The notes beneath the pieces were generated by a model. The model did no database searches, was not told the origin of the DNA, and saw only the letters and a program-made list of their open reading frames with translations. DNA of 64,000 nucleotides from Methylobacter tundripaludum (GTDB lineage Bacteria > Pseudomonadota > Gammaproteobacteria > Methylococcales > Methylomonadaceae). Position 1 is the stretch's first letter; each line of letters opens with the position of its first letter. A program made the translations under genes and the position numbers. The stretch is from assembly GCF_002934365.1 (NCBI RefSeq), contig NZ_PTIY01000001.1, positions 124,001 to 188,000 of the forward strand, read 5' to 3'. Below are positions 2,241-57,050 of this stretch, in pieces.

Positions 2241-2744
2241 TTAATCCAACCGCTTCAGTCCGTTCAAGGGACACTTGGCAAGCAAATCGGCAATATCGCC
2301 TTTCCCCGGCACTCGTAATTGCGGAGCAATTTCATACAAGGGGTACAAAACAAAAGCCCTTTCGGCAATACCGACATGAGGTACTGTCAAATCAGGCAAC
2401 TCAATAGTCCGATCGCCGTAGATCAACATATCCAGATCCAGCGTTCTTGCCCCCCAACGCTCAGCTTTTCTTACCCGGCCCTGATCGTTTTCTATATGTT
2501 GCAGGCAACGCAGCAACTCGATGGGAGGCAAGCGCGTTTCGATGCACATCACCGCATTAACGTAATCGGGCTGATCTTGCGGTCCCATAGGAGCGCTATG
2601 ATACAAACTGGAAAATGCCAGCTCCTTAACCCCGTCTATTTGCGTGATTGCCGTGCGCGCTGATTTTATTTGCTCGGCAGGGTTGGCAAGATTACTGCCC
2701 AAACCTATATAAACGGCGACCGAGTCAGTTTCTGGATTTTTCAT
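2241..2744 (-). CDS. folK: HPPK, first copy (6-hydroxymethyl-7,8-dihydropterin pyrophosphokinase)
   Basis: Pyrophosphorylates 6-hydroxymethyl-dihydropterin in folate synthesis. I chose the ATG at 2744, giving 167 residues; a TTG three codons upstream is also possible. Family landmarks are GLGSN near the N-terminus, the YHSAPMG loop, and the segment RWGARTLDLDMLIYGD that contains the Mg-binding DxD aspartates and the conserved Trp. It follows pcnB by a few bases and precedes panB, a common gammaproteobacterial order. A second, more divergent HPPK lies at 25466-25966. This copy keeps all the classical motif residues and is probably the main folate enzyme. Confidence 0.95.
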   Translation of the reverse strand: MKNPETDSVAVYIGLGSNLANPAEQIKSARTAITQIDGVKELAFSSLYHSAPMGPQDQPDYVNAVMCIETRLPPIELLRCLQHIENDQGRVRKAERWGARTLDLDMLIYGDRTIELPDLTVPHVGIAERAFVLYPLYEIAPQLRVPGKGDIADLLAKCPLNGLKRLD

Positions 2745-2758
2745 AGGTATCAAATACG

Positions 2759-4057
2759 TTAAGACTCTGTTTTGGGCGCACTATCTTTAGCTTTCTTATG
2801 ATAGCTGCGTTTACGTCCTGCCTTGCTGTTTTGGCCACGGCGCGGCGGCTGAGTCATTTTTCTTTGCTCATTTTCATCGGCATTCTGATACCGGGTCCAC
2901 CACTCGGCCAGCTCAGGATCGACGCCCCCTGTCTCGGCGCGCAGCAACAAAAAGTCATAACCGGCTCTAAAGCGCGGATGCCCGATCAAGCGGCTGGGTT
3001 TGGAGCCGATACGCGCGTTAAATTTGGGTTGTAAGCTCCAAACCTCGCGCATAGCCATGCTGATATGGCGCGGAAGCGCCGTACTCCTGATCTGTCTGGC
3101 AATAACTTCGCTGGCCGCATCCTGGTAGGCAATAACTTCAATCTCGCCTTGCGCCATTTTTGCTTTGGCCAGTATCCGCACAGGCTCCCACAAAAAGGCC
3201 GCCAATAAGAAGTAAGCCGTAACCGTTTTTCCCTCGGCTATCCTGTTATCCGAATTTTCCAGAGCCTTAATCAACAACAAGCGGGGAAAGCCGTCTTCTT
3301 CAACCGCCAAACTGTTTTCCGTGGCGGGAAACAGCACTTGAAAAAGACCGTAGTGCCTGAGCACTTCAAAAGTTTGCAACGCATAGCCGGATAAAAACAA
3401 CTTGATTGCTTCATCGTATAGACGGGCGGATGGTATGTCGGCCAGTAGCTGGACGTCGTTGTGTATCGCTTTTTCGCATTCAGGATCCAGTTTAAAGCCG
3501 AGTTTAACGGCAAAACGCACCGCCCTTAACATGCGCACCGGATCCTCACGAAAGCGCATTTCGGGATCGCCGATAAGTCTGAGCATCCCGGCTTTATGAT
3601 CAGCCATGCCGCCGACATAATCCACCACCGAAAAATCCTTGATATTGTAATAGAGTGCATTAACGGTAAAATCCCTGCGCCAAACATCTTCTTCAATCGT
3701 ACCGTAGACATTATCCCTCAATAAGCGTCCTTCCTTGTTGAGTACCTGCTTGTCGTTTTGCTCTTCTCCCGCGCCCCGAAAAGTCGCAACTTCAATAATT
3801 TCCCGGCCAAAATGCACATGCGCCAGACGAAACCTGCGCCCGATTAACCGGCAATTGCGGAATACTTTTCTGACTTGATCAGGGTCGGCATTGGTGACGA
3901 CATCAAAATCCTTGGGCTCCCGCCCCAACAGCAAATCGCGCACACAACCGCCGACCAGATAAGCATCGAAGCCCTCTTTTTGCAGCCGATACAGAACCTT
4001 CAGCGCGTTTTCACTGATCTGGGATCGTGAAATATTATGTTCCGCACGCGAATACAC
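2759..4057 (-). CDS. pcnB: Poly(A) polymerase I
   Basis: Adds 3' poly(A) tails to RNA, which marks it for decay. The nucleotidyltransferase head carries GGCVRDLLLG and the catalytic DFD (PKDFDVVTNA), followed by the RRDFTVNALYY and REDPVRMLRAVRFA blocks. The tail is rich in Lys and Arg. The coordinates use the first conventional start, a GTG at 4057 (432 residues). The frame, however, stays open to a TAG at 4154-4156. The residues just upstream (GQVK before VYSRAEHNISR) resemble the E. coli PcnB N-terminus, and there is no ATG, GTG or TTG in that stretch. An ATT at 4127-4129 preceded by AGGGTG is the likely true start, adding 24 residues. E. coli pcnB is known to start at AUU. Confidence 0.95.
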   Translation of the reverse strand: MYSRAEHNISRSQISENALKVLYRLQKEGFDAYLVGGCVRDLLLGREPKDFDVVTNADPDQVRKVFRNCRLIGRRFRLAHVHFGREIIEVATFRGAGEEQNDKQVLNKEGRLLRDNVYGTIEEDVWRRDFTVNALYYNIKDFSVVDYVGGMADHKAGMLRLIGDPEMRFREDPVRMLRAVRFAVKLGFKLDPECEKAIHNDVQLLADIPSARLYDEAIKLFLSGYALQTFEVLRHYGLFQVLFPATENSLAVEEDGFPRLLLIKALENSDNRIAEGKTVTAYFLLAAFLWEPVRILAKAKMAQGEIEVIAYQDAASEVIARQIRSTALPRHISMAMREVWSLQPKFNARIGSKPSRLIGHPRFRAGYDFLLLRAETGGVDPELAEWWTRYQNADENEQRKMTQPPRRGQNSKAGRKRSYHKKAKDSAPKTES

Positions 4058-4156
4058 TTTGACTTGTCCGGCAACCGGTACAGTCTCGTTTCTGGCTACG
4101 CCAATAATTTTTTTAAAGAAGTTTAAAATAGTCTTTACACCCTGTTTATTTTTCTA
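4058..4156 (-). other. Open 5' extension of pcnB with candidate AUU start codon
   Basis: The minus-strand reading frame of pcnB continues without a stop from 4057 up to a TAG at 4154-4156. It contains no ATG, GTG or TTG. An ATT codon at 4129-4127 has AGGGTG at 4143-4138, eight bases away, which is good Shine-Dalgarno spacing. The encoded peptide begins LNFFKKIIGVARNET and runs into the conserved PcnB N-terminus. The 4058-4359 interval has no other gene; the rest of it holds the promoter at 4211-4240 for the divergent genes and an AT-rich leader. Confidence 0.6.
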
Positions 4157-4210
4157 ATTATTTTTGATTATATCATTGCTAATGAATTCTAACCCAATCC
4201 GCAAGTTTCT

Positions 4211-4240
4211 TTTACATTCCCCTTTTGAATGGAGTAGAAT
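4211..4240 (+). promoter_or_regulatory. Sigma-70 promoter for the 4360-9917 gene series
   Basis: TTTACA at 4211-4216 (5 of 6 matches to the -35 consensus), an 18-base spacer, and TAGAAT at 4235-4240 (5 of 6 to the -10). It points toward the small ORF at 4360, leaving a leader of roughly 110 bases. Prediction from sequence only. Confidence 0.5.
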
Positions 4241-4359
4241 CAGCACTCTGATTTTTACGAGTAACCAATTAAAACATATTGCACACGCCAGATAAAAAAA
4301 TCAGACCACCATTTTTTAAACACTCGCACAAACATTAGCGTGCTTGACTGGAATTTGTT

Positions 4360-4539
4360 ATGTTCAAAAAGATTCTTAATAGCTTAATTGACCAACCTTT
4401 GTTAACCAGCCTTTTTGCAACAGATTTTTTCATTCTTCTGTTTCATAGACCGCCGTTTTTATTTTCCCTGTTAATGCTGGGAGCGCTAATGGCGATGTGC
4501 ATGTATTTTGGTCAAAAATTAGCCTTATTTAAAGTTTAA
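4360..4539 (+). CDS. Small hydrophobic protein of unknown function (59 aa)
   Basis: An ATG-initiated ORF of 59 codons whose TAA stop at 4537-4539 directly abuts the TTG start of the RDD protein. The product is basic at the N-terminus (MFKKIL) and strongly hydrophobic from about residue 17 to 55, with one or two membrane segments separated by HRPP and a short tail ending in FKV. I do not recognise the family. The direct abutment with a membrane-protein gene suggests translational coupling and possibly a joint role in the membrane. No convincing Shine-Dalgarno is visible, and it could be a chance ORF in an AT-rich leader. Confidence 0.5.
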   Translation: MFKKILNSLIDQPLLTSLFATDFFILLFHRPPFLFSLLMLGALMAMCMYFGQKLALFKV

Positions 4540-5010
4540 TTGGTCGAGCCAGCAAAGAATACGCCGCAAAAACCAGGCAATGTCCACATTTCCAGACCTG
4601 GTTTTTTACGTCGTCTCGCAGCAACATTTTACGACCTGCTGCTGCTGATTGCCGTTTTATTTGTCGCGACCGCACTATTGCTTCCTTTCAATGGTGGCAG
4701 GGCGTTTACTGCCCAACAGTTCTTTTTCCCCCTGTACCTACTGCTAGTCAGCTTCCTGTTTTACGCTTGGTTTTGGACTCATGGCGGGCAGACATTGGGC
4801 TTACGCGCGTGGAAAATAAAAGTGCTTACTCTGGATAGGGAACCCATCAGCTGGAAACAAGCGCTGCTCCGTTTCGTAGCCGCCATCGTATCATGGGGAT
4901 TCTTTGGACTGGGTATTTTGTGGATTCTTATTGATAAAAACCAGCTCAGTTGGCACGATCACCTCTCCAAAACAGCCCTGTTTCTTGACGCTCACGACGC
5001 CCAGCATTAA
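4540..5010 (+). CDS. RDD family membrane protein
   Basis: 156 residues from a TTG start that immediately follows the preceding small ORF. The first membrane segment has the family's Arg/Asp pattern (RPGFLRRLAATFYDLLLL). A second helix follows at about residues 60-80, then GQTLGLRAWKIKV, and a C-terminal block ending LIDKNQLSWHDHLSKT, which is typical of RDD proteins. Function in this family is unsettled; transport or ion homeostasis roles have been proposed. An alternative start is not obvious because the next Met lies too far inside. Likely the second gene of an operon running to ubiD. Confidence 0.85.
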   Translation: MVEPAKNTPQKPGNVHISRPGFLRRLAATFYDLLLLIAVLFVATALLLPFNGGRAFTAQQFFFPLYLLLVSFLFYAWFWTHGGQTLGLRAWKIKVLTLDREPISWKQALLRFVAAIVSWGFFGLGILWILIDKNQLSWHDHLSKTALFLDAHDAQH

Positions 5011-25477: not shown

Positions 25478-25966
25478 AGCCCAGGACGGCATGACGCGCT
25501 TTTGCCTGAGATCGGTCTTGTCGAATTGCTGCCACAGCTCGGCATAACTGATGTGATTGACAGGATGTTTCAGGGCCGGGGCGATTTCCGCCAAAGGTTC
25601 AAGCACAAAAGCGTAATGCTCGATTTCATCACGGGGTATTTGCAGGCGGCCATCGTTGACGATCAGCTCTCCGTATAGAATCAGATCCAGATCGAGGGTT
25701 CGCGCCGCAAACTTCCGGCTGTCGGGCGTGCGGCCGTTATCCAGCTCAATTTGCCTGAGCTGTTTTGCAACCGCTTTCACTTCCAAATCGGAGTCGAAAC
25801 CGACCACGAGATTGTAGAAAACGTCGCCGGTAAAGCCGACGGCTTCGGATTCGTAAATACTTGAAACCGTCAGTTTTCCGAAGGCTTGTTCAAGCGCCCT
25901 GAGGCTGGCAGGAATGTGTACATCCTTGTTTATGTTGCTGCCGATGCTGATATAGCCTCTGGTCAC
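25466..25966 (-). CDS. folK2: HPPK-like protein, second copy
   Basis: 166 residues with the HPPK fold: ISIGSN at the start, SSIYESEAVGF, and ARTLDLDLILYGE with both Mg-binding Asp. The Trp that normally precedes the Arg-Thr-Leu motif (RWGPRTLDLD) is Phe here (RKFAARTLDLD), and the loop is otherwise altered. A divergent folK beside folB also occurs in Pseudomonas. Whether it phosphorylates the same pterin as the copy at 2241 or serves another pterin pathway cannot be told. It overlaps the folB start by four bases. Confidence 0.88.
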   Translation of the reverse strand: MTRGYISIGSNINKDVHIPASLRALEQAFGKLTVSSIYESEAVGFTGDVFYNLVVGFDSDLEVKAVAKQLRQIELDNGRTPDSRKFAARTLDLDLILYGELIVNDGRLQIPRDEIEHYAFVLEPLAEIAPALKHPVNHISYAELWQQFDKTDLRQKRVMPSWASTK

Positions 25967-55826: not shown

Positions 55827-57050
55827 TTATTCCGATTTAATAAACTCCGCAACAGCCTTAATTCGGAGGCGGCGTATCGCCTCGCCAATATCCGCGCCTT
55901 TAAGTTCACTGTTCAGAATAGCCGACATATCGACCGATGCCGCCTCCTTGGCGGCGGCGCTCAGCAGTCCGGCCTGAGGATAGGGTGAATGTTCAAATCC
56001 GGTTCTGCCTTTGGCGTCCGCCTCGCAAGCCAGCAAAAATTCAGGCAACTTATTGTTTGGCTTGTATGCGCCCAGAGCGGCCAGCATATCGGTTATTGTT
56101 GAAGCGCGTAACTCAAAAGCCCGATGACAGTGGGTATGGTATTGCATGACCTGCATAGCCAGCGATTTAAACGAGTTCGGTACGCGCAGGCGGGCGCACA
56201 TCCGCTCCAATACCGGCAAACCTTGAGTTTCATGTGCGTAATGATGCGGCCAGTTTGCTTCCGGCGACAGACCTTTGCCCAAGTCGTGAACCAACGCCGC
56301 AAACCTGACTTCGGGACTCGGCGACAAAAGCGCCGCCTGCTCCAAGCAGAGCATGGCATGAATGCCGGTATCGATTTCCGGGTGGTGTTTTTCCGGCTGC
56401 GGCACGCCAAATAAACAACTTATTTCCGGGAAGATTTTATCCAGCGCCGCGCAGTCTTTTAAAGTATAGAAAAAAGCGCTGGGCGATTTCTCGTTCAGCG
56501 CCTTAAACAGTTCGGCCCATACCCGCTCAGGAACCAAATGATCCACCTCCCCTGCCGTCACCATAGACTGCATCAAAACGCGGGTTTCCTCAGCCAGCGT
56601 GAAACCGAGATCAGCGTATCGGGCCGCAAAACGGGCGATACGCAATATCCGCACGGGGTCTTCGGCAAATGCCGGTGAAATATGCCGGAAAATGCGTCGC
56701 TCAAGATCGCGCCGCCCGCCGTAAGGATCGACAAGCAGGCCTTCCGGCGTCATCGCCATCGCATTGATGGTCAGGTCGCGGCGTATCAAATCCTGTTCCA
56801 GGCTGACATCGGGAGATGCATGCACGGTAAAACCTTTGTAACCGGGCGCGGTCTTTCTTTCAGTTCTGGCCAGCGCATATTCTTCACGGCTTTGCGGATG
56901 CAAGAATACCGGAAAATCCTTGCCCACCGGCCTGAACCCTTGTTTCACCATGGATTCCGGGGTCTCGCCGATCACCACCCAGTCCCGCTCCTTGACCGGA
57001 AGCCCAAGTAATTGATCGCGCACCGCACCGCCAACAAGATATATTTCCAC
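55827..57050 (-). CDS. cca: Multifunctional CCA-adding tRNA nucleotidyltransferase
   Basis: Adds or repairs the tRNA 3' CCA. 407 residues. The head has YLVGGAVRDQLLG and the catalytic ERDWVVIG; the RRDLTINAMAM block follows. The C-terminal half carries an HD domain (FAALVHDLGKGLSPE, with HHYAHE), which supports phosphohydrolase activity as in E. coli. The window's tRNA already encodes its CCA, so a repair role is likely. It is distinct from the pcnB relative at 2759. Divergent from purC. Confidence 0.96.
   Translation of the reverse strand: MEIYLVGGAVRDQLLGLPVKERDWVVIGETPESMVKQGFRPVGKDFPVFLHPQSREEYALARTERKTAPGYKGFTVHASPDVSLEQDLIRRDLTINAMAMTPEGLLVDPYGGRRDLERRIFRHISPAFAEDPVRILRIARFAARYADLGFTLAEETRVLMQSMVTAGEVDHLVPERVWAELFKALNEKSPSAFFYTLKDCAALDKIFPEISCLFGVPQPEKHHPEIDTGIHAMLCLEQAALLSPSPEVRFAALVHDLGKGLSPEANWPHHYAHETQGLPVLERMCARLRVPNSFKSLAMQVMQYHTHCHRAFELRASTITDMLAALGAYKPNNKLPEFLLACEADAKGRTGFEHSPYPQAGLLSAAAKEAASVDMSAILNSELKGADIGEAIRRLRIKAVAEFIKSE

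Follow-up and report, generated by a model that had tools for sequence, protein, structure and literature searches.

The pcnB gene of Methylobacter tundripaludum raises a simple question, namely at which codon its translation begins. In the window (the whole stretch of DNA analysed, 64,000 nucleotides in length), the pcnB frame runs open from a TAG at 4156-4154 to a GTG at 4057, and this stretch contains no ATG, GTG or TTG (collectively, NTG). Three in-frame ATT codons lie upstream of the GTG, at 4129-4127, 4108-4106 and 4105-4103, and the first of these follows an AGGGTG (4143-4138) after a spacer of exactly eight bases (TAAAGACT). The first-pass annotation had drawn on the open NTG-free frame, the ATT at 4129-4127 and the AGGGTG to propose an AUU start resembling that of E. 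coli pcnB, and each of these features was confirmed base for base. On comparative grounds, translation almost certainly starts at the AUU of 4129-4127, which would give a poly(A) polymerase I of 456 residues. The elements of the locus are listed here by window position.

2759..4129, minus strand: proposed pcnB coding sequence, an open frame of 456 codons from ATT 4129 plus the stop codon TAA at 2761-2759
4127..4129, minus strand: ATT (AUU), proposed pcnB start codon
4138..4143, minus strand: AGGGTG, Shine-Dalgarno-like, with a predicted 16S-tail pairing of -6.5 kcal/mol
4154..4156, minus strand: TAG, the in-frame stop that bounds the possible pcnB start
4055..4057, minus strand: GTG, the first ATG, GTG or TTG of the pcnB frame, and an internal valine codon if translation starts at the AUU
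4103..4126, minus strand: codons +1 to +8 (LNFFKKII), a conserved N-terminal block that would be lost with a start at 4057
4167..4175, minus strand: TGATATAAT, an extended -10-like element of putative function; the leader would then be some 30 bases long
2241..2744, minus strand: folK, downstream of pcnB, with an ATG start and a TIGR01498 match; used as a control gene

The pcnB identity of the frame is given by its match to TIGR01942 (527.6 bits against a cut-off of 305.65), and E. coli poly(A) polymerase structures match the product at E 1e-124 or better than 1e-122. The product is not filed under NF008634, the NCBI equivalog model for E. coli-type PcnB, because its 479.8 bits fall under the curated cut-off of 702; the alignment to that model spans residues 3-442 of the AUU-started protein, with residue 3 at model position 7. 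Homology also crosses the GTG at 4057, since the translation there (...PVAGQVKVYSRAEHNISR...) matches the equivalent stretch of E. coli MG1655 (...ARPQVTVIPREQHAIS...), and the earlier claim to this effect was thereby borne out. Among named organisms, the nearest N-terminus is that of an uncultured Methylococcus (L301).

The conservation of the start was followed through the genus, where all 23 genomes searched gave a match, and the family, where 200 of 201 did so, seven of them only at E 1e-6 to 1e-15 and probably through the cca paralogue alone. The 5' region was read at 94 family loci: all 23 from the genus plus 71 from elsewhere in the family, 60 of which were chosen so as to represent further genera. 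The motif following ATT 4129 served to place its column, with four rows set by hand (L167, L374, L375 and L387) and none left unplaced. Homologues that begin at the equivalent of 4057 with no homology upstream, which the first-pass annotation had named as the contrary case, were thus not encountered in the family. Alignment of N-termini in relatives, the check it had proposed, gave ATT in 90 loci, ATC in two and GTT in two, in a column that leans towards isoleucine because the placing motif demands isoleucine or valine there. For comparison, ATT makes up 0.488 of the isoleucine codons in the pcnB body, a contrast that ignores kinship among the loci, and at two isoleucine positions inside these genes ATT stands in 63 of 93 and 20 of 85 readable rows. 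The four exceptions all carry an ATG or GTG upstream, where the weak codon has been lost: an in-frame ATG lies 14-15 codons upstream in L395 and L396 (both GTT) and in L394 (ATC), and in-frame GTG codons lie 9 and 19 codons upstream in L160 (ATC). Conversely, the 49 loci whose frame is free of NTG from the in-frame stop down to the column all have ATT. By these column counts, the third base is held where initiation would depend on it, and the codon is free to change in loci that have an alternative start. A G-rich triplet (GGT, AGG, GGG, GGA, AGT and others) sits four codons ahead of the start in most of the 94 loci. TTA directly follows the start codon in 79 of the 94, and most loci have a pyrimidine immediately in front of the start codon; both features may be relevant to initiation at a weak codon.

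A wider survey of Gammaproteobacteria gave a match at E 1e-60 in 348 of 377 genomes. Outside the family, 136 class-level loci were read, 107 of them from the high-similarity end of the class search, and many of the class-level loci cover only about 100 codons of pcnB. Named loci were the best 80 of 592 in a ranking by resemblance to E. coli, the source of the leading PcnB in the query, and three extra groups (f57, f102 and f67) were added since they looked informative, so that the sample is not a random one. With duplicates, MG1655, L269 (open at its 5' end) and L325 (conserved block not found) left out, 344 loci were kept. In 78 of the 344, the stretch that runs from the in-frame stop to the second codon ahead of the conserved block's anchor tyrosine is free of NTG; the other 266 carry some NTG there and enter the count only as a group. 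ATT, ATC or ATA is available in 77 of the 78, against 56 expected from codon sampling within the same genes, and the single exception (L184) offers CTG. Before f67 and f102 were added, the NTG-free loci numbered 67, of which 54 had ATT, 11 had ATC without ATT, one had ATA and one had CTG; 18 of the 67 came from the 136 class-level loci.

The extra groups show how far the codon itself may vary. Of 19 f57 loci fetched, 18 could be read, by eye, and all 18 have ATT or ATC in the column; 15 lack any NTG. ATT has no advantage over ATC there (8 of 18), and selection for AUU as such is therefore not a general rule. In f67, the column has ATT in 17 loci and ATC in two of 19, with no NTG in ten, and in f102, ATT or ATC occurs in seven of nine, with no NTG in four and neither codon in L047 and L403. 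Weak codons interchange in the family, f57 and f67, and in none of the three did the start column show an ATG. Farther afield, Citrobacter (L228), Kluyvera (L230) and Pantoea (L237) have ATT TTT ACC CGA in common with E. coli. ATT stands at the corresponding place in Shewanella (L263), Ferrimonas (L270 and L276), Idiomarina (L275) and Colwellia (L262), ATC does so in Pseudocolwellia (L259) and Glaciecola (L287), and Sedimenticola (L296) offers only ATA. The frames of Serratia, Rouxiella and Xenorhabdus stay open over long distances and were left unassigned. A weak start was therefore found in many gammaproteobacterial lineages but not in all of them: Vibrio (L249, L250 and L253), Marinobacter (L291 and L295), Gilvimarinus (L304) and an annotated Amphritea gene have ATG instead, so that pcnB can evidently do without a weak start. 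A record titled Chryseobacterium sp. 18061 (L231) holds an Enterobacterales-type pcnB whose 5' region is identical to that of Citrobacter sp. 18056 (L229), and it is probably mislabelled or contaminated.

That so many relatives retain AUU or AUC points to a weak start that is preserved rather than accidental. Much as has been proposed for E. coli, AUU would be retained for its very weakness, as a codon disfavoured by initiation factor 3 (IF3), and discrimination by IF3 would keep PcnB scarce and tracking the state of the initiation machinery; by analogy, we infer that IF3 controls the level of PcnB here as in E. coli. The most durable alternative accepts the AUU start and attributes its conservation to amino-acid or mRNA-structure constraint, or to slow drift, with no IF3-linked control. 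This account has a substantial chance of being right, though a less than even one. It gains from the next codon, TTA, which is likewise conserved synonymously (79 of 94), from the lineages that use ATG and from the inferential nature of the IF3 link in this organism. Against it, other isoleucine columns vary in the family, and in f67 ATT is strongly over-used at the column relative to those genes, whose bodies have ATT as only 0.226 of their isoleucine codons. Moreover, isoleucine itself would not be selected at the column, because the residue laid down at a start codon is methionine.

Rivals that move the start elsewhere fare much worse. Were translation to begin at GTG 4057, the sequence upstream would be untranslated, and it is true that this GTG is the first NTG of the pcnB frame. 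However, among the 23 genus loci, GTG occupies this position here alone, with ATA or ATT in 21 and another codon in L011, and its predicted Shine-Dalgarno pairing is poor (-3.2). The upstream LNFFKKII is moreover matched by NF008634 and changes as coding sequence does: across the 94 family loci, the mean entropy in codons +1 to +8 is 0.54 bits at the first codon position, 0.32 at the second and 1.09 at the third, and non-synonymous changes relative to the M. tundripaludum sequence stand to synonymous ones in a crude ratio of 0.12; for codons -8 to -1, the entropies are 1.27, 1.13 and 1.47 and the ratio is 0.41. (A genus count by codon position was left aside, since the alignment is disrupted by indels ahead of the start.) From these patterns, the residues that follow the ATT are read as evolving as coding sequence, and a start at the GTG is most improbable.

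Equally improbable is a start at one of the later ATT codons, 4108 or 4105, both of them in frame and identical to the proposed codon. Their columns vary, with ATT in 34 and 46 of the 94 loci, respectively, and ATC, ATA, TTG, CTT, TTT and others in the remainder, and conserved residues precede both. Least likely of all is entry by frameshift, either from an out-of-frame ORF upstream or by slippage on the seven-A run (4114-4108) that sits just after the proposed start, given that no NTG-started out-of-frame ORF stays open into codon +8 at the M. tundripaludum locus and that only three of 49 comparable family loci have one, each begun by TTG. All three of these candidates were rejected on the genus and family columns, the ORF test and the pattern of coding change. 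Initiation at AUU 4129 as in E. coli, the central claim of the first-pass annotation, is by the same token strongly supported by comparison, through the genus, the family, f57, f67, the coding change and the frameshift test. Comparison likewise shows that AUU is conserved in the family and that other gammaproteobacterial families use AUU or AUC at the corresponding place.

The initiation signal itself is modest. Predicted Shine-Dalgarno pairing is -6.5 at the proposed start, as opposed to -9.8 for E. coli pcnB and -9.3 for the M. tundripaludum infC, and a value of this order would fit low expression of pcnB. An enrichment analysis based on Shine-Dalgarno pairing over all 64 codons did not single out even ATG.

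Two other genes served as controls. The folK gene was fetched from 30 genomes, representing all 18 of the class-level NTG-free cases, seven more of f57 and five of the genus, and an ATG, GTG or TTG was found within 25 codons before its conserved block in 28 of 28 readable loci (the block was unreadable in L335 and L356); in M. tundripaludum (L348), the ATG lies 13 codons before the block. A search for infC gave matches in 27 of 31 genomes of the order, and the apparent start was ATC in all 27, M. tundripaludum included. Its infC lies outside the window at G000:C9:12418-12924 (L223), where TGGAGG precedes the ATC. Given this ATC, the genome seems to use another weak codon, AUC, for infC, and its two genes would differ in codon, with AUC in infC and AUU in pcnB.

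Non-canonical starts of this sort have precedents. The AUU start of E. coli pcnB is credited to Binns & Masters 2002, as cited in later papers. PMC9410913 describes the AUU of infC as serving the self-regulation of IF3 and says that E. coli has only two AUU genes. In Staphylococcus, according to PMC13009471, cvfC1 and ccpN have conserved AUU or AUA starts that lower expression and were mapped by ribosome profiling. The M. tundripaludum locus most resembles E. coli pcnB, in that the gene is orthologous, folK is adjacent, a Shine-Dalgarno-like sequence precedes the start and an AUU would head the homologous N-terminus with no NTG before the conserved block. It differs in its N-terminus (LNFFKKII here, FTRVANFCRKVL in E. 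coli), in its weaker predicted Shine-Dalgarno sequence and in having its start placed by comparison. With infC, which starts at AUU, AUA or AUC, it shares a non-NTG isoleucine start codon and so, on the comparative evidence, a start outside ATG, GTG and TTG of the type that IF3 discriminates against. Unlike infC, which is subject to feedback by its own product in the account that PMC9410913 gives, pcnB would come under such control in trans. With cvfC1 and ccpN it has in common the conservation of a non-canonical start; those genes are unrelated, have an extended Shine-Dalgarno sequence and were studied by ribosome profiling.

The kind of start is therefore already known, and what may be new is the depth of its conservation, the AUC variant and the cases of loss with replacement. 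In the open-access literature, to the extent of its available text, only the E. coli pcnB case was found, and neither the depth of conservation nor the AUC variant was; a 2020 arXiv survey of non-AUG starts (Gvozdjak and Samanta) could hold relevant data. It is conceivable that, in much of Gammaproteobacteria, pcnB has long been kept, like infC, on isoleucine starts that IF3 discriminates against (AUU, AUC and rarely AUA), a generalisation for which we judge the odds to be even. If it is true, the dose of an RNA-tailing enzyme would be tied to the fidelity and abundance of initiation across a large part of the class. The presence of a weak pcnB start in distant relatives, with AUC accepted, would turn a one-species curiosity into an evolutionary experiment on start weakness, and the link between IF3 and polyadenylation becomes testable.

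Starts other than ATG, GTG or TTG are easily missed by gene finders, and the first-pass annotation had predicted that automated annotation would truncate the protein. This prediction fails for E. coli, where MG1655 and all four other records opened place the pcnB start at the ATT, and these five records indicate that annotation can be right where a reference exists. For Gammaproteobacteria outside E. coli, the present results suggest that PcnB N-termini merit a manual check. The residues at stake may have a function of their own. A basic amphipathic pattern is found in the first dozen residues after the weak start in L003 (the equivalent of 4126-4103), L071, L254, L262, L263 and L276, and the share of shuffles reaching the observed moment was below 0.05 in 13 of 15 hand-chosen peptides, the exceptions being L162 and L199. 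These values lend moderate support to a predicted amphipathic N-terminal helix, which could possibly serve as a membrane anchor. PMC9764084 cites a paper on E. coli PAP I and its localisation to the membrane, which together with the short basic amphipathic N-terminus invites the speculation that a truncated annotation might hide a targeting helix.

The TGATATAAT element occurs in most of 16 leaders inspected among genus relatives, about 37 bases before the ATT. A two-hexamer promoter and terminator scan of 4050-4560 gave no promoter-like site on the pcnB strand and no terminator-like site, and it did not pick up TGATATAAT; within 3900-4600, no known regulatory RNA of the leader matched Rfam at the gathering threshold. 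On the minus strand, pcnB is followed by folK and then by further ORFs, which we take from their translations to be panB, panC and panD. Elsewhere in the window, a second TIGR01942 match on the minus strand (56403-57047, 84.1 bits, below the cut-off) is probably the cca tRNA nucleotidyltransferase paralogue, and a second folK-family match, besides the folK adjacent to pcnB, lies at 25577-25954 on the minus strand (TIGR01498, 94.5 bits, above the cut-off).
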